Shown: positions 11,369 through 56,279 of the stretch, in pieces
Layout of the letters: every line of letters starts with the position of its first letter
How positions within the stretch are numbered: position 1 is the first letter of the stretch
NCBI GenBank assembly: GCA_020349965.1
Contig: CP070705.1
Span: 1,042,291-1,106,290 of the forward strand
Origin: Caldifarciminota bacterium
GTDB taxonomy: Bacteria; Hydrothermota; Tepidihabitantia; SM23-42
Reading direction: 5' to 3'
Length of the DNA: 64,000 bases
Notes under the pieces: generated by a model
The model's database searches: none
Seen by the model: the letters and a program-made list of their open reading frames with translations, nothing else
What the model was told of the DNA's origin: nothing
Program-made: the position numbers and the translations under genes

Positions 11369-12115
11369 TTATTCTTGTAAGGAATAGCCGGCAGGTATTT
11401 CGAAAACTCTGTCGTTTATTGGTTTTGTTTCGATCTTTGTCACTTCGCTATGGGTGGTCATTGTGAACGACATTCCTTCACCGCCCATGGTAATGTCCAT
11501 ATCGATTTCGAGCGGGAAACCGTCGATTTCGCTGATCTTCTTCTGAAACTCCTCGTAGTTTTTCTTGTTTGGGCCCATCATTGCCGATGATGAACCGAGG
11601 CCTGATTCTGCCATCTGTTTCTGAAACTCTTGGATCTCCTTGTAACCCGGGATTTCCTTAGTCACCCACATTGTCTGTTTGAACGTCATCTTGCCCTCTT
11701 CCCCTGCGCTTTCCATTGACACGATGACCTGCTCACAATCCTTCTTGAGAATTTGTTTCTTCTCGCCGGTTCTGAAGACTTTCAATTCAGGCATCTCCAT
11801 CTCGGTTTCTTCATATTCCTCGGTCGCACCGCTCATTGTTTCCAGACTGTGTTCCGAGTATTTCTCGTTTTCATGATCGATAGACCATATTACGCCTTTA
11901 TCGAGACGGATGATTTTTGTGTCAGACATGGGTCCCGTCATCGGATTCTCGGCGGTCATTTCGGTCAATGACCGGTCACCCTTGACGAATACACGCATCT
12001 GTGTTTCCGCTTTCATGCCCATCATACCGGACGTAGTGGAAGTCATTTCGTACATGACATCTGCACTCATCACCGATGCGACAAAGAGTAATGATACGAG
12101 AGAGATTATTCTCAT
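11369..12115 (-). CDS. secreted DUF4412-like protein
   Basis: The predicted exported protein of about 248 residues has a signal peptide (RIISLVSLLFVASVMSA). The body resembles DUF4412 proteins: VFVKGDRSLTEM, then KIIRLDKGVIWSID and a MTFKQTMWVTKEIPGYKE stretch. It is rich in Met and Glu (an EEYEETEMEMPE segment near 110). The family has no known activity. I chose the ATG at 12115 because a GGAGGC site lies 6 nt upstream; an in-frame ATG at 12145 falls within the promoter. It has its own promoter and appears monocistronic. A second DUF4412-like gene lies at 41389. Confidence 0.78.
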   Translation of the reverse strand: MRIISLVSLLFVASVMSADVMYEMTSTTSGMMGMKAETQMRVFVKGDRSLTEMTAENPMTGPMSDTKIIRLDKGVIWSIDHENEKYSEHSLETMSGATEEYEETEMEMPELKVFRTGEKKQILKKDCEQVIVSMESAGEEGKMTFKQTMWVTKEIPGYKEIQEFQKQMAESGLGSSSAMMGPNKKNYEEFQKKISEIDGFPLEIDMDITMGGEGMSFTMTTHSEVTKIETKPINDRVFEIPAGYSLQE

Positions 12116-25757: not shown

Positions 25758-25785
25758 TTGACAAATTAAATTTCTTCAATATAAT
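25758..25785 (+). promoter_or_regulatory. promoter of the marR-hdr-flx operon
   Basis: Perfect TTGACA (25758-25763) and TATAAT (25780-25785) with a 16-bp spacer. It is one of the strongest promoters in the window. Confidence 0.9.
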
Positions 25786-25796
25786 GTAGTTGTTAA

Positions 25797-25811
25797 TAGC
25801 AATTATTGTTA
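25797..25811 (+). promoter_or_regulatory. probable MarR operator
   Basis: The 15-bp near-palindrome TAGCAATTATTGTTA (TAnCAAT-n-ATTGnTA) lies 11 nt after the -10 box, at about +5 to +19 of the predicted transcript. A looser symmetry (GTTG to CAAC) extends outward. The position and size suit a MarR dimer blocking its own promoter. Confidence 0.6.
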
Positions 25812-25832
25812 GCAGCAACTAATGGAAGTGAT

Positions 25833-26243
25833 ATGAGAAGAAGACTATTTGAACTCATCATAATGCTGGTGAAAAAATGCCAGCATACCGAGGCAAAGAT
25901 AAGGGATGAGTTTGGCCTAACGACGGCAGAGTACAATGCGCTCCTGACTATGGGAGAAGATGAGCGAATGCTATGCCACGTCTTCTCGAAGAAGATGGGG
26001 CTGTCTCCCTCCAGAGGAAGCAGGGTCATCGACCGGCTGACGAAAAAAGGATTTGTCAGAGGCGAAGCGGTGCCGAGTGACCGTAGGATCCTAAGAGTCT
26101 CGATGACGGAAAAGGGTGTTCAACTTAAGGAACTCATCAGGAAGAGAATGGATGAATGCGAAAATGACATATTGGGAAGCTTGTCAGCAGAGCAACGCGA
26201 GACCGTGCGTGACACGCTCGCAATGCTTTCGGAGATAATGTAG
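25833..26243 (+). CDS. MarR family transcriptional regulator
   Basis: The winged-helix regulator of about 136 residues has the MarR pattern: FGLTTAEYNALLTMGEDE, then KKMGLSPSRGSRVIDRLTKKGFVRGEAVPSDRRILRVSMTEKG, covering recognition helix and wing. The ATG at 25833 follows GGAAGTG; an in-frame TTG at 25806 lies within the operator and is unlikely. It is the first gene of the hdr-flx operon and probably represses it in response to a small molecule or redox signal (inference). MCHVF contains the single nearby Cys that could sense redox. Confidence 0.9.
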   Translation: MRRRLFELIIMLVKKCQHTEAKIRDEFGLTTAEYNALLTMGEDERMLCHVFSKKMGLSPSRGSRVIDRLTKKGFVRGEAVPSDRRILRVSMTEKGVQLKELIRKRMDECENDILGSLSAEQRETVRDTLAMLSEIM

Positions 26244-26251
26244 TTGAAAGG

Positions 26252-26737
26252 ATGGATATGAAGGGACGAGAAATAGCCGAGGCGACTGTGGTCAATTATG
26301 CGCAAATGTTTGACCTTTCACTCAGTAAGCATAAGATGATGGACATGATGCCCGGGCTCCTGCTCTTCCTTGCCCGGCGGCCTGAAATGGTCACGCCGGC
26401 GTTAGAGAGAATGCTTCCGATGATGGAACAAATGAACATCGAGGTCAATCATGATCTCTTGATCGAAATGATGCCCTCTGTGGTGAAGGCCGTGAATATG
26501 GAACCGGGAATGGGCGGAGATATCTTCAAGAGAATGGTGCCAATGATGGATGCTTTCAAACTGAAGATGAACTTTTATGTAATGAAAAATGTCATGGGGA
26601 TGATGATGTTGATGATGGTACGCCATCCGACTACTATTCCCGGTATGATGAAAGTCATGCCGAAGATGATGGACTTCAGTTTCTACACGAATTTCATCAA
26701 TAGGATAAAAGGAGTATTTCATGCACGAGACAAATAA
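26252..26737 (+). CDS. methionine-rich protein of unknown function
   Basis: I do not recognise this 161-residue protein. Thirty-two residues (20 percent) are methionine, clustered as MM pairs in helical repeats: MLPMMEQM near 51, MMPSVV near 73, MVPMMDAF near 97, MGMMMLMM near 122 and MMKVMPKMM near 137. It has no Cys and no signal peptide. It lies 8 nt after marR and overlaps hdrC by 17 bases, so it is translated with the Hdr/Flx complex. Possible roles are a soft-metal binder, a membrane-associated adaptor or an oxidant buffer, all inference. Confidence 0.8.
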   Translation: MDMKGREIAEATVVNYAQMFDLSLSKHKMMDMMPGLLLFLARRPEMVTPALERMLPMMEQMNIEVNHDLLIEMMPSVVKAVNMEPGMGGDIFKRMVPMMDAFKLKMNFYVMKNVMGMMMLMMVRHPTTIPGMMKVMPKMMDFSFYTNFINRIKGVFHARDK

Positions 26738-27419
26738 AGAATGGCTGCCCGGTTTCGACAAGAAATTTGCCGAACTGACCCATCAGATGGTAAAGGATCT
26801 CGAAAAATGCCTGCAGTGCGGTAAGTGTACGGGGCAGTGTCCGGCAGCAAAGTTGTCATCATACAACCCGAGAGAGATCATACGCGATCTCCGAATGGGC
26901 AACGTCGATAAGGTGATCAGCAGTCATGAATTGTGGTTATGCTTCTTCTGTAGCGGGTGTTACGCCGTGTGCCCGCGCGACATAAACTTCCCGTTCGCGG
27001 TTTCCATGCTGCGTTATGCCGCGCTTGCGCAGGGATATGGTTGGGAAGAGGTCAAGGAGATCAAAGATCCTTATGCACAGGATTATTACAACACAGGACT
27101 CTCGGTCAATGTCAACGAGAGGAACCTCGGTGTCAAGAAAGAGATTGCGAAAAATTCGGGCACCGACGGGCGGATCGAGACGGTACGCAGGAAGATGGGT
27201 CTGCCTCCTAAGAGAAAGATATCACAACGTGCGATGAGTGAGATCAGGTTCATCGCCGATGCTACGGGCATGACCGATTTGTTCAAAGAGATTGACAAGA
27301 AAGTGGCGAAGGAAAAAAGCTGGAATTACGGCAGCCCGGCCGATCTTGTTAAAGTAAAGAAAGGACCGAACCAGAAATTCATCGACATCGAAGATGAGGA
27401 GAAAGAGAGGATATCATGA
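26721..27419 (+). CDS. hdrC: HdrC-like iron-sulfur subunit
   Basis: Heterodisulfide reductase C-type electron carrier, 232 residues, with two [4Fe-4S] motifs: CLQCGKCTGQCP near residue 32 and CFFCSGCYAVCP near 74. These pass electrons between HdrA and the catalytic HdrB. AAGGAG precedes the ATG. The C-terminal 100 residues are longer than in minimal HdrC and end in a charged tail. It is the third gene in the operon, preceding hdrB by 13 nt. Confidence 0.93.
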   Translation: MHETNKEWLPGFDKKFAELTHQMVKDLEKCLQCGKCTGQCPAAKLSSYNPREIIRDLRMGNVDKVISSHELWLCFFCSGCYAVCPRDINFPFAVSMLRYAALAQGYGWEEVKEIKDPYAQDYYNTGLSVNVNERNLGVKKEIAKNSGTDGRIETVRRKMGLPPKRKISQRAMSEIRFIADATGMTDLFKEIDKKVAKEKSWNYGSPADLVKVKKGPNQKFIDIEDEEKERIS

Positions 27420-27432
27420 GGAGGATACTCAG

Positions 27433-28386
27433 ATGGCACGCCAGCAAGTTCTAGAGAAGACAAAGGTGTCGGACAGGATATTTCTATTCCAGCCGTGCGT
27501 CGGGAGTAACAAGTATCCGGGGTTGATTACTTCGGCAACAGAATTTTTCAGGAAATTGGGTATCGAACTCGTAACGAGTGATGATCAGACCTGCTGCGGC
27601 GGTTTTCTGACATTCACGAATGTTGCACAGCCGACGAGCACAATGCCCGCAGTCGCGCGCAATATTGCGGTGGCTGAAGAAATGGGGCTGGATATTCTCA
27701 CTCTGTGTAATGGGTGTCACACGTTCCTGACCGAATTTTCGCATTTCATGAACGACCGCCCTCCGGTGAAGAACGTCGTCAATGTGATCTTGTCCATGAT
27801 CGGACGCGAGTATAAAGGCAGCCAGGACATTTACCATTCCCTGGAAATTATCTATAAATTGAAGGAGAAGATCAGAAAAAACGTAACGAGATCGCTGAGC
27901 GGGATGAGGTTCGCGACCCACTACGGGTGCCACTACCTGAATGGTTTCAAGAAAACGGCGCTCGATGATCCGCACATGCCGACGATCATGGAAGAACTGA
28001 TCGAAGCAATGGGAGGCGAGATTGCCGAGTATGGCGAAAACAGAACTTGTTGTGGTACTGGTCTGACACAGATCATCATCAACAAAGAAACATTGTCGCT
28101 GCCGCACACCAAGATGAAGTTGGATAATTTGAACGCTGCAGAACCGGATGCGGTGGTGGTCGTCTGCCCTTACTGTCTTGCCCAGATCGATCGCATGCAG
28201 CAGAAACTGAACTATCGTGGCTCAGGTGATTACAAAGTGCCGGTTATCCATCTCGTCCAACTCGTTGGACTGGCACTCGGTGTTGATGTGGTAAAACTCG
28301 GCTTTGATGCGCACGCGATCAGCTTCAAGAATTTCCTGAGAAAGTTCGAATCGGTTCAGGCAAAAGCAGAGGTGGTCAATGGCTAA
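27433..28386 (+). CDS. hdrB: HdrB-like catalytic subunit with two CCG domains
   Basis: Subunit that reduces disulfides at noncubane [4Fe-4S] clusters in heterodisulfide reductases. Both CCG motifs are complete: PCVGS, TCCGGF and CNGCH in the first half; GCHYL, TCCGTGL and CPYC in the second. The start is the ATG at 27433 with GAGGAGGA 6 nt upstream; an in-frame ATG at 27394 has no such site. The length of about 317 residues is normal. The physiological disulfide in a bacterium without coenzyme M/B is unknown, possibly DsrC-like (inference). Confidence 0.93.
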   Translation: MARQQVLEKTKVSDRIFLFQPCVGSNKYPGLITSATEFFRKLGIELVTSDDQTCCGGFLTFTNVAQPTSTMPAVARNIAVAEEMGLDILTLCNGCHTFLTEFSHFMNDRPPVKNVVNVILSMIGREYKGSQDIYHSLEIIYKLKEKIRKNVTRSLSGMRFATHYGCHYLNGFKKTALDDPHMPTIMEELIEAMGGEIAEYGENRTCCGTGLTQIIINKETLSLPHTKMKLDNLNAAEPDAVVVVCPYCLAQIDRMQQKLNYRGSGDYKVPVIHLVQLVGLALGVDVVKLGFDAHAISFKNFLRKFESVQAKAEVVNG

Positions 28387-30337
28387 TGTCGGCGTATTCA
28401 TCTGTCACTGTGGGGTGAACATTGCGTCGAAAGTGGATGTGAAGAGGGTCGTCGATACGCTTAAAGTAATGCCCGAAGTAGGGTTTGCCCATGAATACAA
28501 ATTCATGTGCTCGTCCCCCGGTCAGGAACTGATCAGAAAGGCTATCAGGGAGAACAAAATAAATCGAGTCGTAGTTGCAGCTTGCTCACCGCGCATGCAT
28601 CTTCCTACGTTCCAGACGGCTCTGGCGACCGAAGGATTGAATCCCTATCTCGTTTCGATGGCTAACATCCGCGAGCAATGTAGCTGGGTAACGGATGATC
28701 CAGAAAAGGCGACGCAGAAGGCAATCGACCTCGTAGCGCGTCAGATAAAGCGTGTTGTGCACCAGGACCCGCTCGATGATATCAATGTACCTATGACCAA
28801 GGCTGCTTTGGTGATCGGCGGCGGCATCGCCGGCATTCAGGCAGCTCTCGACATCGCCGACGGTAACCGCAAAGTCATTCTTGTGGAGAAGAGCCCGAGC
28901 ATCGGCGGCCGTATGGCGCAACTCGACGAAACGTTTCCGACCCTCGATTGCAGTCAGTGTATTCTGACCCCGAAAATGGTCGAAGCAGCCCAGCATCCCA
29001 ACGTCGAGATACGGGTCAATTCTGAGGTCAAGAAGGTTGACGGTTATGTCGGTAACTTTGAGGTGACTGTTGAAAGGAAGGCCACGTATGTCGACGCGCA
29101 GAAGTGTATCGGGTGCAGTATCTGTCAGGAAAAATGTCCGGTTAAGATAGTGCCTGATGCATTCAATGCCGGTTTGAGCACGCGTGCAGCCATTGCCATT
29201 CCATTTCCTCAAGCGGTTCCTGCGATCCCTGTCATCGATCCGGATTATTGCCGAAAACTGACCGAAGACAAGTGCGGTGTCTGTGCAAAGGTCTGTCCTG
29301 CCGAAGCGGTGGTTTTTGATGATACGCCGAAACAGGACACTATCAACGTCGGCGCCATTGTTGTCGCGACCGGTTACAGGGAGATGGATCCAGGAATCTA
29401 CACCGAGTACGGCGGCAATAAATTTCCAGATGTTGTCACAGGTTTGCAGTTCGAGCGTCTCGTTTCATCGACGGGTCCGACTGGCGGAGATTTGAAACGG
29501 CCGAGTGACGGGAAAGTGCCAAAGACGGTCGTCTTTGTGCAGTGTGTTGGTAGCCGTGATGAATCAAAGGCGCATGCATATTGCAGTGGGATATGCTGCA
29601 TGTATACGGCAAAGCACACCATGCTGTACAAACACCACGTGCCTGACGGCCAGGCATATGTAAGTTACATCGATGTCCGCGCGCCGGGAAAGACTTATGA
29701 GGAATTTGTAAGAAGAGCGATCGAGGAAGAAGATGCGAGATACTTGCGAGGTCGCGTGGCGAAGATTCGGCGTCTACAGAACGGCCTGTATCGTGTTTAC
29801 ACCGAAGATACACTGGTCGGCAGAGCCGTGCACATCGACGCGGACATGGTCGTTCTCGCCAGCGCAGTCGAACCGCAAAGAGATGCGGTCCGATTGGCCC
29901 AGATGCTTGGCATAGCCTACGATGCTGATGGTTTCTATACAGAGGCGCACCCCAAGCTGAAACCCGTGGAGACCGCGAGCGCTGGTGTCTTTCTTGCCGG
30001 CGCATGCCAGGGGCCGAAGGATATTCCTGCGAGCGTTCAACAAGGAAGTGCGGCGGCATCCAAGGTGCTTTCACTCTTTGCTAAAGATACGCTCATAATA
30101 TCGCCGCAAATTGCCGTCGTTGATCCGACGGCTTGCACCGGATGCCTCACGTGTTCATATGTCTGTCACTATACAGCGATCGAGGAGAAGGAATTCGGCC
30201 AGCGACGGGTGGCCGAGATCATTTCCGGCAAATGTCAGGGATGCGGTGCATGTGTGGCAACATGTAAAGGAAAGGCTATTACGCTGGCTGGATTCAGCGA
30301 CGACGAAATCTATGAGGAGATCGTATCATGCAAATAG
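28379..30337 (+). CDS. hdrA: HdrA-like FAD iron-sulfur subunit
   Basis: The 652-residue flavoprotein is thought to carry out electron bifurcation. It has an N-terminal domain with a Cys-rich start (VFICHCGVNIASK), a Rossmann FAD site near 140 (VIGGGIAGIQAALD), a Cys motif LDCSQCILTP near 185 and a [4Fe-4S] insertion CIGCSICQEKCP. At the C-terminus two further clusters are CTGCLTCSYVC and CQGCGACVATC. The start overlaps hdrB by 8 bases and the end overlaps flxD. The size matches classical HdrA. Confidence 0.95.
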   Translation: MANVGVFICHCGVNIASKVDVKRVVDTLKVMPEVGFAHEYKFMCSSPGQELIRKAIRENKINRVVVAACSPRMHLPTFQTALATEGLNPYLVSMANIREQCSWVTDDPEKATQKAIDLVARQIKRVVHQDPLDDINVPMTKAALVIGGGIAGIQAALDIADGNRKVILVEKSPSIGGRMAQLDETFPTLDCSQCILTPKMVEAAQHPNVEIRVNSEVKKVDGYVGNFEVTVERKATYVDAQKCIGCSICQEKCPVKIVPDAFNAGLSTRAAIAIPFPQAVPAIPVIDPDYCRKLTEDKCGVCAKVCPAEAVVFDDTPKQDTINVGAIVVATGYREMDPGIYTEYGGNKFPDVVTGLQFERLVSSTGPTGGDLKRPSDGKVPKTVVFVQCVGSRDESKAHAYCSGICCMYTAKHTMLYKHHVPDGQAYVSYIDVRAPGKTYEEFVRRAIEEEDARYLRGRVAKIRRLQNGLYRVYTEDTLVGRAVHIDADMVVLASAVEPQRDAVRLAQMLGIAYDADGFYTEAHPKLKPVETASAGVFLAGACQGPKDIPASVQQGSAAASKVLSLFAKDTLIISPQIAVVDPTACTGCLTCSYVCHYTAIEEKEFGQRRVAEIISGKCQGCGACVATCKGKAITLAGFSDDEIYEEIVSCK

Positions 30338-30762
30338 ACAAAGAGCCAAAAATCCTGGCGATTCTGTGCAAGTGGTGCAGCTATGCCGGAGCTGACCTCG
30401 CGGGCACAAGCCGATTCGCGTATCCTGCGAATGTGAGGATCATACAGGTTCCATGCTCGGGCAGGGTCGATCCGGTCATGATATTCAAGGCTTTTGTTGA
30501 AGGGTATGACGGCGTAATGGTGAGCGGCTGCCACCCCGGTGACTGCCACTACGGTACAGGTAATTATCATGCAAGACGGAGGATGGCTGTTGCCCGACGT
30601 TTGCTGCAGTTCGTAGGGGTGCATCCTGAACGTATGCATTTCACCTGGATTTCAGCGGCAGAAGGCAAGAAATTTGCCGAGGTTTGTGGACAGTTCACGG
30701 ACAGACTGAAGATGCTTTCAGGAACCGAAAGGACACTTGCCCGAAAGGAGCTCGCGACATGA
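30328..30762 (+). CDS. flxD: MvhD/FlxD-like [2Fe-2S] adaptor subunit
   Basis: The 144-residue MvhD-type protein links an electron-donor module to HdrA. Conserved features are CKWCSYAGADLAG near residue 12, VPCSGRVDP near 41 and SGCHPGDCHYGTGN near 65, which supply the [2Fe-2S] ligands. It overlaps hdrA by 10 bases and flxC by 4 (ATGA). No MvhAG hydrogenase genes follow; instead an Flx-type NAD(P)H module follows, so the name FlxD fits better. Confidence 0.93.
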   Translation: MQIDKEPKILAILCKWCSYAGADLAGTSRFAYPANVRIIQVPCSGRVDPVMIFKAFVEGYDGVMVSGCHPGDCHYGTGNYHARRRMAVARRLLQFVGVHPERMHFTWISAAEGKKFAEVCGQFTDRLKMLSGTERTLARKELAT

Positions 30763-31604
30763 AGGAATTGAGAAAAAAGATTAAGGAACTGTTCGAGAAT
30801 GGCGAGGTGGATGCTGTACTCGGTTATCGCGAGGATCCGGCAACCGGCGGAGTCAAGGCGGCTGTTTTCAAGAAGGACGAAACACTCGATGATATGGTTT
30901 TCGACGGAAGATGTATTCAGAATTTGGTGAATTATCTGCCCACCTTGGTGGCGCGTTACAGAAAAGTAGGTGTTGTCTTGAAGGGATGCGACGGACGTTC
31001 GCTGGTCACGCAGTTGGTCGAGCACCGCATAAGCAAAAGTCAGATAATCGCGCTCGGTATTGGTTGTGAAGGTGTGGAAATCGACGGGAGGGAAGCAGAA
31101 AAGTGTGGTGATTGTGCGACGCACATGTCACCGGTCGCCGATTATGAATTCGGCGAAAAAGAAGAAAAGAAAGAACCGACATTTGCCAGGGTCGAGGAAA
31201 TAGAGAAGATGTCGCCGGTCGAACGCTGGAAATTCTTCGCCGATTACTTCGCAAAATGTGAACGTTGCTATGCATGCCGGCAGATTTGTCCTTCGTGCTA
31301 CTGTGAGATTTGCATTGCAGACCAGCAGGAACCGAAATGGATCGAACCTTCGGCAAAACTCTCCGCCAACACAATGTGGCATTTGATCAGAGCATATCAT
31401 CTCGCCGGACGCTGTGCTGATTGCGGGGAATGTGAACGTGTATGCCCACAGGATATTCCGCTGAGACTTCTAAACAACGCATTGGAAAAAGCGGTTCATG
31501 AAATGTTCGGCGTTCGTCCCGGCACTGTTCCCGAGGAAGTACCGCCCCTTGTTGTTTTGAATAAGGATGACCCGGATCGGATCCTGGAGGGTAAGAATGA
31601 ATAA
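30759..31604 (+). CDS. flxC: FlxC-like iron-sulfur protein
   Basis: The protein of about 281 residues has an N-terminal domain like the F420-dehydrogenase beta N-terminus (KAAVFKKDETLDDMVFDGRC, VVLKGCDGRSLVTQL) and two C-terminal ferredoxin-type clusters: CERCYACRQICPSCYCEIC and CADCGECERVCP. It should relay electrons from FlxA/FlxB to FlxD/HdrA. It starts in an ATGA overlap with flxD and overlaps flxB by 8 bases. The Flx naming follows the FlxABCD-HdrABC complex of Desulfovibrio, in which the four subunits have these domain types. Confidence 0.88.
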   Translation: MKELRKKIKELFENGEVDAVLGYREDPATGGVKAAVFKKDETLDDMVFDGRCIQNLVNYLPTLVARYRKVGVVLKGCDGRSLVTQLVEHRISKSQIIALGIGCEGVEIDGREAEKCGDCATHMSPVADYEFGEKEEKKEPTFARVEEIEKMSPVERWKFFADYFAKCERCYACRQICPSCYCEICIADQQEPKWIEPSAKLSANTMWHLIRAYHLAGRCADCGECERVCPQDIPLRLLNNALEKAVHEMFGVRPGTVPEEVPPLVVLNKDDPDRILEGKNE

Positions 31605-32640
31605 ATGGCATAAGATAAAGAAAACTGACCTGCAGAAATATGTGTCTCGGCTTGCAGAAAAATGGGAGGTGTGGATCCCCCGTCTCGTTGACGGAAAATG
31701 GGAGTTCGGTATTTATGATGGCGCCAGAGATCTGGATCTGCCAGAGAGTATCATAGACGTTTCGTTGAAGAACCTTTTCTTCCCCAAGCGGCGTGCGATC
31801 GCAACTTTTGATGAGAACAGCAAATGGTCCCTACAGCCAGTCAGTCCAGAACGAAGGCCGCGTATCATTTTGGGCCTACATCCTTGCGATGCGGCCGGCA
31901 TCGAGTACATGGACAAAGTTTTTCTGCAATCCGAATACAAAGATGTAATGTATAAGAACGAAAGGGAACGAACGATTCTCGTAGGGATGCTTTGTAACAA
32001 GATGGGTGACGATTGCCACTGTACGGATCGTGGACTGACGCCTGATTCAACCAGCAGTATGGATGTGGCGTTCGTGAATGAAGGGGAATGGTATTTCTTC
32101 AGGAGCCTGACCGACAAAGGAAAACGAATAATGGAATCGAAATATCTTAAAGAGACCGATGAAGGCCCGACGAAGAATGAATGGCCGGCCGGGAAATATT
32201 CCATCGCATCACCCGAAGAATTCATGGAAATGTATGATGACAGCATCTGGCACGAACTGTCGGATATATGCCTGACTTGCGGCATATGCACTTATGCCTG
32301 CCCAACCTGCGTGTGTTTTTTGGTCGCCGATGAGAAATTCAAGGGTAAGGGTGAGCGGGTGACGGTCTGGGACAGCTGCCAGCTGCAGTCCTATTCAAGG
32401 ATGGCGGGAGGTCAGAATACCAGGAAGACACCTGCCAGCCGGGTGCGTAATCGGACCCTTGATAAGTTCGCTTACAGCCATCTCAGATACGGTCGGATCT
32501 CTTGTACGGGCTGTGGCCGTTGCATCATGGTGTGTCCTCTGAAAAGAAGTTTCCCCCAGCTCGGTGCACGTCTTTCAGAAAGAATAAGGGAAAAGGAGAA
32601 GGAGAGAACCAAAGTGCCGGCGGAGTCAAAGGAGGAGTGA
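31597..32640 (+). CDS. flxB: FlxB-like [4Fe-4S] dicluster protein (HydB type)
   Basis: The protein of about 347 residues resembles sulfhydrogenase beta subunits. It has an N-terminal region with RIILGLHPCDAAGIEYMDKVF and CHCTDRGLTP, and then two cluster motifs CLTCGICTYACPTC near 225 and CTGCGRCIMVCP near 300. It is expected to pass electrons from the FAD subunit FlxA. The start is the ATG at 31597 with GGAGG 6 nt upstream. It ends one base before flxA. Confidence 0.9.
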   Translation: MNKWHKIKKTDLQKYVSRLAEKWEVWIPRLVDGKWEFGIYDGARDLDLPESIIDVSLKNLFFPKRRAIATFDENSKWSLQPVSPERRPRIILGLHPCDAAGIEYMDKVFLQSEYKDVMYKNERERTILVGMLCNKMGDDCHCTDRGLTPDSTSSMDVAFVNEGEWYFFRSLTDKGKRIMESKYLKETDEGPTKNEWPAGKYSIASPEEFMEMYDDSIWHELSDICLTCGICTYACPTCVCFLVADEKFKGKGERVTVWDSCQLQSYSRMAGGQNTRKTPASRVRNRTLDKFAYSHLRYGRISCTGCGRCIMVCPLKRSFPQLGARLSERIREKEKERTKVPAESKEE

Positions 32641-32641
32641 A

Positions 32642-33457
32642 ATGACGACAATCGAACTTGTTCCAAAGCCGGCAACGATCAAGAGAATGATCGATGAGTC
32701 CAGGGATGTTAAGAGTTATGTGCTGGAGATGAATGAATCCCTGACGATGCCTGCTCTGCCCGGCCAGTTCGTGGAAGTCTCAGTACAAGGCTATGGTGAG
32801 GCCACGTTTGCTGTTACACGGAAATCAAAGGGCGATCGAGAATTCACGATTTCAGTCAAACGAATCGGCCATCTTACGAAGATGTTGCATCGCGCCGCTA
32901 CGGGTGATATCGTCGGGGTGCGCGGTCCCTATGGGAATAGCTTCCCGGTTGATGACTGGAAAGGGAAAGACATTTTGGTGATCGGTGGCGGTATCGGCCT
33001 CGCGCCGCTGCGCCCGGTCATCGATCATATTCTCCTGAACCGGAAGGATTACGGTTCAATGGAGATAATCTTCGGTGCACGTACGCCGGATGATATTCTC
33101 TACAAAGAAGATCTTAAGATGTGGGAGAGCGATAAGAGCATTTTGCTTCATAAAACGATAGACGTACCGTTCGAAGGCTGGAATGGCAGGGTCGGTGTCG
33201 TGCCGGCCGTTATCAGGGATCTCGGTGTGAAGCCCGACAGAAGGGTCTCTATCGTTTGCGGCCCACCGATAATGATAAAATTCACCGCAGCTGCCCTGAG
33301 AGAATTGAGGTGGCCCGATGATAGAATATTCACGACGCTCGAGATGAAAATGCAGTGCGGTATCGGTCAGTGCGGGCGATGTAACATCGGCGAAAAATTC
33401 ATCTGCAAGGATGGACCGGTCTTCAGTCTTGATCAGATCCCCGAACACGCCCTTTAG
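32642..33457 (+). CDS. flxA: FlxA-like NAD(P)H-oxidising FAD/[2Fe-2S] subunit (HydG type)
   Basis: The 271-residue ferredoxin-NADP reductase-like protein has a flavin-binding barrel (PGQFVEVSV near 40, RGPYGNSFP near 96), a nucleotide-binding domain (VIGGGIGLAPLRPVI near 113) and a C-terminal [2Fe-2S] site (MQCGIGQCGRCNIGEKFICKDGP near 238). It is the likely entry or exit point for NAD(P)H in the Hdr/Flx complex. It is the last gene of the nine-gene operon; no strong terminator follows. Confidence 0.92.
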   Translation: MTTIELVPKPATIKRMIDESRDVKSYVLEMNESLTMPALPGQFVEVSVQGYGEATFAVTRKSKGDREFTISVKRIGHLTKMLHRAATGDIVGVRGPYGNSFPVDDWKGKDILVIGGGIGLAPLRPVIDHILLNRKDYGSMEIIFGARTPDDILYKEDLKMWESDKSILLHKTIDVPFEGWNGRVGVVPAVIRDLGVKPDRRVSIVCGPPIMIKFTAAALRELRWPDDRIFTTLEMKMQCGIGQCGRCNIGEKFICKDGPVFSLDQIPEHAL

Positions 33458-55802: not shown

Positions 55803-56279
55803 ATGCTTAGAGCAAAATCGAGGCAAACGATGCTGCTCGCTGCAGCAGTGATGGTATTGGCTGGGAGCGCCTATGCGCAGAAGCCAGATATGGAAATGGA
55901 ACATGGTGGAAGGCGATGCATGGTTGAAGGTCGGGGTGAACATATGATGATGATCCCTGATATTACGGAACAACAAAAGGAACAGATAAAATCATTGAGG
56001 GTCGAGCACATGAAGGAGATGAAACCTTTACGCAACCAACTTGCAGAGAAGAAGGCACGTTTGAATACTCTGACCACGGCCGATAAGGTTGACATGTCCG
56101 AAGTCAATAAGATCATCGACGAAATCGGTAAGATGAAGACAGGGATCATGAAATTGAAAGAGCAGCACCGTCAAGATGTTCGCAAGTTGCTCACCGACGA
56201 CCAGCGTCTCTTCTTCGATTCACACCAACCCATGCACCACGAAGGACCGCAACACAAAGCAATGCCTCATATGAGATAA
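55803..56279 (+). CDS. Spy/CpxP-like periplasmic protein, His- and Met-rich
   Basis: The protein of about 158 residues has a cleavable signal peptide (MLLAAAVMVLAGSAYAQ). The helical body has the two LTxxQ-type motifs of the Spy family (DITEQQ near 53, LLTDDQR near 130). Met/His-rich ends (MEMEHGG, MHHEGPQHKAMPHMR) could bind metal. The ATG at 55803 follows AAGGAG. It is the fourth gene of the sigma/anti-sigma set and is followed by a terminator. Confidence 0.87.
   Translation: MLRAKSRQTMLLAAAVMVLAGSAYAQKPDMEMEHGGRRCMVEGRGEHMMMIPDITEQQKEQIKSLRVEHMKEMKPLRNQLAEKKARLNTLTTADKVDMSEVNKIIDEIGKMKTGIMKLKEQHRQDVRKLLTDDQRLFFDSHQPMHHEGPQHKAMPHMR

Follow-up and report, generated by a model that had tools for sequence, protein, structure and literature searches.

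Organization of the hdr–flx locus

The window, by which we mean the whole 64-kb stretch of DNA analysed here, belongs to a 2.3-Mb, single-contig genome whose close relatives are WOR-3 metagenome-assembled genomes, and contains a forward-strand operon with the order marR–METR–hdrCBA–flpD–flxCBA. A gene for a MarR-type regulator (25833–26243) is followed by METR (26258–26737), which encodes a methionine-rich three-repeat protein, and by a divergent hdrC (26721–27419), whose solved relatives are methanogen HdrC proteins. METR is the next gene downstream of the marR stop codon at 26243 and overlaps hdrC, which begins with the ATG at 26721, by 17 bp, confirming the placement given in the preliminary description. 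Family searches identified the remaining subunits in the expected order: a methanogen-type hdrB with two CCG domains (27433–28386, also found by a PDB sequence search), an HdrA2-like hdrA (28379–30337), a flpD/mvhD-like gene (30328–30762), an flxB-like gene (AsrA/HydB-like, 31597–32640) and an flxA-like gene for an FAD/NAD(P)-binding subunit (AsrB-like, 32642–33457). The frame at 30759–31604 encodes an iron–sulfur protein with no Pfam match, which we take to be flxC-like from its operon position and from knowledge of the family.

A perfect sigma-70-type promoter (TTGACA-16-TATAAT, 25758–25785, forward strand) lies upstream of marR; across five genomes its TTGACA is invariant and its TATAAT largely kept. 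Just past the −10 box lies a 17-bp imperfect inverted repeat (25787–25821) that is largely conserved in the five genomes, with a conserved core, and is a candidate MarR operator. A single MarR-controlled transcript would be the natural reading of this arrangement.

The operon shares the order hdrCBA–flpD–flxCBA and the subunit types with the FlxABCD–HdrABC systems of sulfate reducers and other anaerobes, but differs from them in containing METR and methanogen-like HdrBC, in a genome without DsrC. In a PDB sequence search, HdrB matched methanogen HdrB (E 4e-59) and HdrC matched methanogen HdrC (E 1e-18), with the solved chains reaching query residue 142. Compared with the HdrC proteins of syntenic operons from other phyla, the METR-linked HdrC has a different N terminus and a longer C-terminal part, and its second cluster motif is followed by about 30 extra residues that other Hdr–Flx HdrC proteins lack. 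DsrC was not found in any of the ten genomes tested, including the source genome, and positions 26721–28386 of the window thus hold methanogen-type HdrB and HdrC genes in a bacterium without DsrC.

METR is a constrained, methionine-rich coding gene

The open reading frame at 26252–26737 on the forward strand comprises 161 codons, 32 of which specify methionine (19.9%) and none cysteine. The ATG at 26258 is the more likely start, because the AAAGGA ribosome-binding site touches the ATG at 26252 and lies 6 nt from that at 26258, and because most family members begin at the equivalent of the latter; METR then has 159 residues, with 31 methionines and no cysteine, as against 161 residues from the upstream start. 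Among the 65 non-overlapping frames of at least 100 residues in the 64-kb window, the mean methionine content is 3.4% and the second highest 10.8%, and within this scope the earlier claim that about 20% methionine without cysteine is exceptional holds.

Relative to four homologues of its genus, METR has a dN/dS of 0.03–0.06, indicating strong purifying selection, and the differences among homologues fall mainly at third codon positions; we therefore regard it as a real coding gene. A histidine-rich antisense frame (26402–26761, reverse strand) is the mirror, by reverse complementation, of the ATG-rich sequence, and selection acts on the forward frame. The N terminus of METR (MKGREIAEATVVNY) has no hydrophobic signal stretch in its sequence, and the protein is by appearance cytoplasmic.

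Methionine is conserved preferentially: 27 of the 31 methionine positions are invariant, compared with 24 of the 41 positions occupied by Val, Leu, Ile or Phe (Fisher p = 0.0096); Leu and Pro reach roughly the same level of conservation as Met. As the methionine positions are more invariant than these hydrophobic positions, even though methionine has a single codon, we argue for a methionine-specific need.

Two other methionine-rich proteins are encoded in the window. One (55803–56279, forward strand; 10.8% Met) has an N-terminal signal-like segment, matches Metal_resist (PF13801) and LTXXQ (Spy/CpxP-like), and belongs to a family other than METR; the other (11369–12115, reverse strand) has 248 residues, 9.7% Met and a match to DUF4412. 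In genome G067, an exported-looking, methionine-rich Metal_resist protein unrelated to METR is encoded between flpD and flxC of an Hdr–Flx-type cluster (L140:4050-4679).

Three 41-residue repeats and predicted helical hairpins

Residues 18–140 of METR consist of three gapless 41-residue repeats: repeat 1 (residues 18–58, FDLSLSKHKMMDMMPGLLLFLARRPEMVTPALERMLPMMEQ; 26309–26431), repeat 2 (residues 59–99, MNIEVNHDLLIEMMPSVVKAVNMEPGMGGDIFKRMVPMMDA; 26432–26554) and repeat 3 (residues 100–140, FKLKMNFYVMKNVMGMMMLMMVRHPTTIPGMMKVMPKMMDF; 26555–26677), all on the forward strand. The lag-41 self-score is far above those of all other lags and was reached by none of 2000 shuffles. In pairwise comparisons with 5000 shuffles, the score of repeats 1 and 2 was reached by none, that of repeats 1 and 3 by one and that of repeats 2 and 3 by five. 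In a stricter test, in which an HMM trained on two repeats was used to find the one left out, repeats 1 and 2 were recovered and repeat 3 was not, and we therefore judge repeat 3 to be the most diverged.

Structure prediction, suggested in the preliminary description, was carried out with AlphaFold2 in two runs with different first sequences. Both runs gave the same six helices, forming one α-hairpin per repeat (residues 24–40 and 42–58, 65–81 and 83–99, and 106–122 and 124–137), in models of medium confidence (pLDDT 77.7 and 76.5) built from a shallow seven-member alignment. The helices are amphipathic, with the methionine direction opposite the polar direction in all six. Among the 31 thioethers of METR, M-x(2-3)-M spacings are frequent. 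Of the earlier observation that MM pairs recur in amphipathic helical repeats, the repeats stand, as three copies with a 41-residue period; the pairing is only mildly in excess, with 10 MM pairs against 5.8 expected from composition (10 or more in 176 of 5000 shuffles).

Relationship to known families

Searches of Pfam, NCBIfam and PHROGs with METR returned only sub-threshold noise (PhageMin_Tail 0.12, YqjK 0.22), the PDB sequence search gave no match, and Foldseek searches of PDB and BFVD with the METR models retrieved only generic helical repeats (E > 0.4). None of the libraries searched describes this sequence family, but lineage-specific accessory proteins of established enzyme complexes are in themselves familiar. 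In the literature, we found no work joining methionine-rich proteins with Hdr and nothing relevant for electron bifurcation.

Methionine-rich amphipathic helical domains that grip hydrophobic helices are known from Sgt2-C, STI1 domains and the SRP54 M domain (PMC8010706). METR resembles these domains, including SGTA, in its methionine-rich, amphipathic, proline-broken helices and a possible flexible apolar groove (PMC8010706). It differs from them in its three regular 41-residue repeats and in lacking a TPR, NG or RNA-binding partner domain, and it had no Pfam or PDB sequence match to binders of the STI1, Sgt2-C or SRP M-domain type and no Foldseek match below E 0.4. With the periplasmic CpxP/Spy/Metal_resist proteins (PF13801), METR shares a high methionine content and helicity; those proteins are exported and match PF13801, whereas METR gave no Pfam match to it over the cut-off.

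DUF1641 (PF07849), the family of ForE, likewise comprises small soluble partners encoded beside iron–sulfur redox enzymes and has a repeat-sized domain (39 positions). Neither METR nor any homologue matched the DUF1641 profile at E ≤ 1, and hhalign against eight DUF1641 proteins gave a probability of 0.2% (E 0.39, 16 columns), so that membership was rejected, with no similarity seen in either comparison; DUF1641 proteins are also less methionine-rich and occur in other clades of the phylum, and the source genome contained no DUF1641 match over the cut-off. DUF1641 genes of further WOR-3 families, and of one additional genome (L076, L080, L084, L086 and L088), adjoin genes resembling sulfide:quinone oxidoreductases, which may represent a quinone pairing of the ForE kind.

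METR is restricted to one HdrC lineage

Protein and profile searches detected METR in 7 of 390 genomes, 147 of which are from its phylum. All seven are WOR-3: five in one genus, one in another genus of the family and one in another family of the class. The METR-associated HdrC type (E ≤ 1e-25) occurs in exactly the same seven of the 390, and three genomes of the same genus lack both. In each of the seven, METR immediately precedes hdrC on its 5′ side, and the frames overlap where the METR C terminus is intact. Moreover, a scan of 84,980 species with short patterns found METR only in four close relatives, and none was found on plasmids or viral contigs.

Two copies depart from the standard arrangement. 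In G064, a genome with 7% estimated contamination, METR lies on a 12.8-kb contig and is truncated at its 3′ end by a TGA after MPKML; the last ~19 residues are lost, the sequence past the TGA is not similar to the METR C terminus, and we read the product as a shorter protein. No marR was detected beside this copy, which leaves METR and hdrC as the unit that stays constant. The operon of G012 is interrupted: hdrA runs into a masked N stretch followed by an opposite-strand tRNA-synthetase-like frame (L005:10113-11226), and flxCBA remnants are located elsewhere (G012:C1:883 kb). This break may be an assembly problem in a single-contig chromosome.

No homologues were found away from hdr/flx genes, where a wide occurrence would have told against the preliminary reading; all seven adjoin hdrC. 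Absence from related operons, which the preliminary description had regarded as telling against its reading, is nevertheless what we found in the wider Hdr–Flx class. No METR or methionine-rich frame was present within 1.5 kb 5′ of hdrC in seven syntenic hdrCBA–flpD–flxCBA operons from other phyla (L138, L142, L143, L144, L146, L148 and L151) or in the other WOR-3 Hdr–Flx clusters. METR is therefore an accessory of one HdrC lineage rather than a general or obligate Hdr–Flx subunit. The earlier idea of a new subunit survives in its tie to its own hdr/flx operon and fails in its general form, and any subunit role must be confined to the variant HdrC found in the METR lineage. Because most of the seven genomes are closely related, the co-occurrence of METR and this HdrC represents few independent events; a tight link within an operon may also come from nothing more than shared regulation.

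A proposed role as dedicated partner of the variant HdrC

To account for the invariable METR–hdrC pairing and the fixation of the methionines, we propose, tentatively and with somewhat less than an even chance of being right, that METR is a dedicated partner of the adjoining variant HdrC, either an assembly factor or a docking scaffold, with a methionine-lined apolar surface that would hold a hydrophobic segment. The proposal builds on the METR gene and its constraint, the repeats, the helix prediction, the preferential methionine conservation and the exclusive linkage to hdrC. METR would be a cytoplasmic α-hairpin repeat protein in which the methionines on the apolar faces of proline-kinked amphipathic helices form a flexible surface, presumably a groove. 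This surface may bind a hydrophobic segment, most likely on HdrC or HdrB, much as the methionine-rich helical hands of Sgt2-C or the SRP54 M domain would do. METR could then either hold HdrC/HdrB during iron–sulfur assembly, or stay bound and serve as the dock between the Hdr half and the redox partner of that half. Against this proposal, sequence and Foldseek searches gave no homology to any hydrophobic-client chaperone and no fold match, and the Hdr subunits are soluble, with no hydrophobic client known to us.

The same linkage could be explained if METR were a stable extra structural subunit of the Hdr–Flx complex of this lineage, a scaffold bridging HdrBC and the Flx module in which the methionines merely pack the core. 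The overlapping METR and hdrC frames, the exclusive linkage to HdrC, the common use of α-hairpin repeats as scaffolds, and the ~30-residue segment and C-terminal part that other Hdr–Flx HdrC proteins lack all point this way. We nonetheless consider a structural subunit rather unlikely, given that the seven syntenic operons from other phyla do without METR, that packing alone leaves the greater conservation of Met than of Ile and Val unexplained, and that the extra HdrC segment, matched by solved chains as far as residue 142, may be common to methanogen HdrC. Another soluble-partner role is suggested by ForE, a DUF1641 protein that serves the menaquinone-linked formate dehydrogenase ForC (PMC8808070): METR might bind a lipophilic redox carrier or a membrane surface and link the soluble complex to the quinone pool. 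ForE-type proteins are small soluble partners needed for menaquinone reduction (PMC8808070), and we read the neighbours of WOR-3 DUF1641 genes as sulfide:quinone reductase-like. A quinone link is, however, improbable for METR, in view of the 0.2% profile probability against DUF1641 proteins, the absence of DUF1641 from the source genome and a WOR-3 genome study that, as cited in PMC12542636, observed no expression of quinone-dependent respiratory enzymes.

The position of the methionines on apolar helix faces bears on two further roles raised by the preliminary description, neither of which was borne out. Binding of Cu(I), Ag(I) or another soft metal would suit the thioethers and their spacings, but METR appears cytoplasmic and is linked to a redox enzyme, not to metal-resistance genes. 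Most known Met-type Cu(I) sites lie in the periplasm or outside the cell, and the metal-resistance-type methionine-rich protein of the window is the separate, exported-looking one at 55803–56279; we regard metal binding as very improbable. Shielding of the iron–sulfur complex by a sacrificial oxidant sink, with methionine oxidation repaired by MsrA, is slightly less probable still. All seven METR genomes encode MsrA and a MarR-type regulator heads the operon, but the three METR-less genomes of the same genus that were tested encode MsrA just as well, and its presence therefore does not discriminate; surface exposure is not expected of methionines on apolar faces, and an invariance of 87% of the methionine positions is more than a sink would require.

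The dedicated-partner proposal makes a simple prediction, which follows from the strict pairing of METR with one HdrC type: METR should physically associate with HdrC. A methionine content of 20%, with nearly every methionine position fixed by selection, is rare except in hydrophobic-binding and copper proteins. In its most far-reaching form, which we consider doubtful, METR would found a new family of 41-residue methionine-rich α-hairpin repeats, would serve bacterial methanogen-type HdrBC in a dedicated role, either as a thioether-lined chaperone or as an electron-relay docking subunit, and would be the first methionine-rich partner known for an electron-bifurcating complex. If the proposal is true, Hdr-based flavin electron bifurcation would gain, in METR of uncultured anaerobes, an assembly or docking factor that had gone unrecognized, and methionine would be the basis of a new repeat family.
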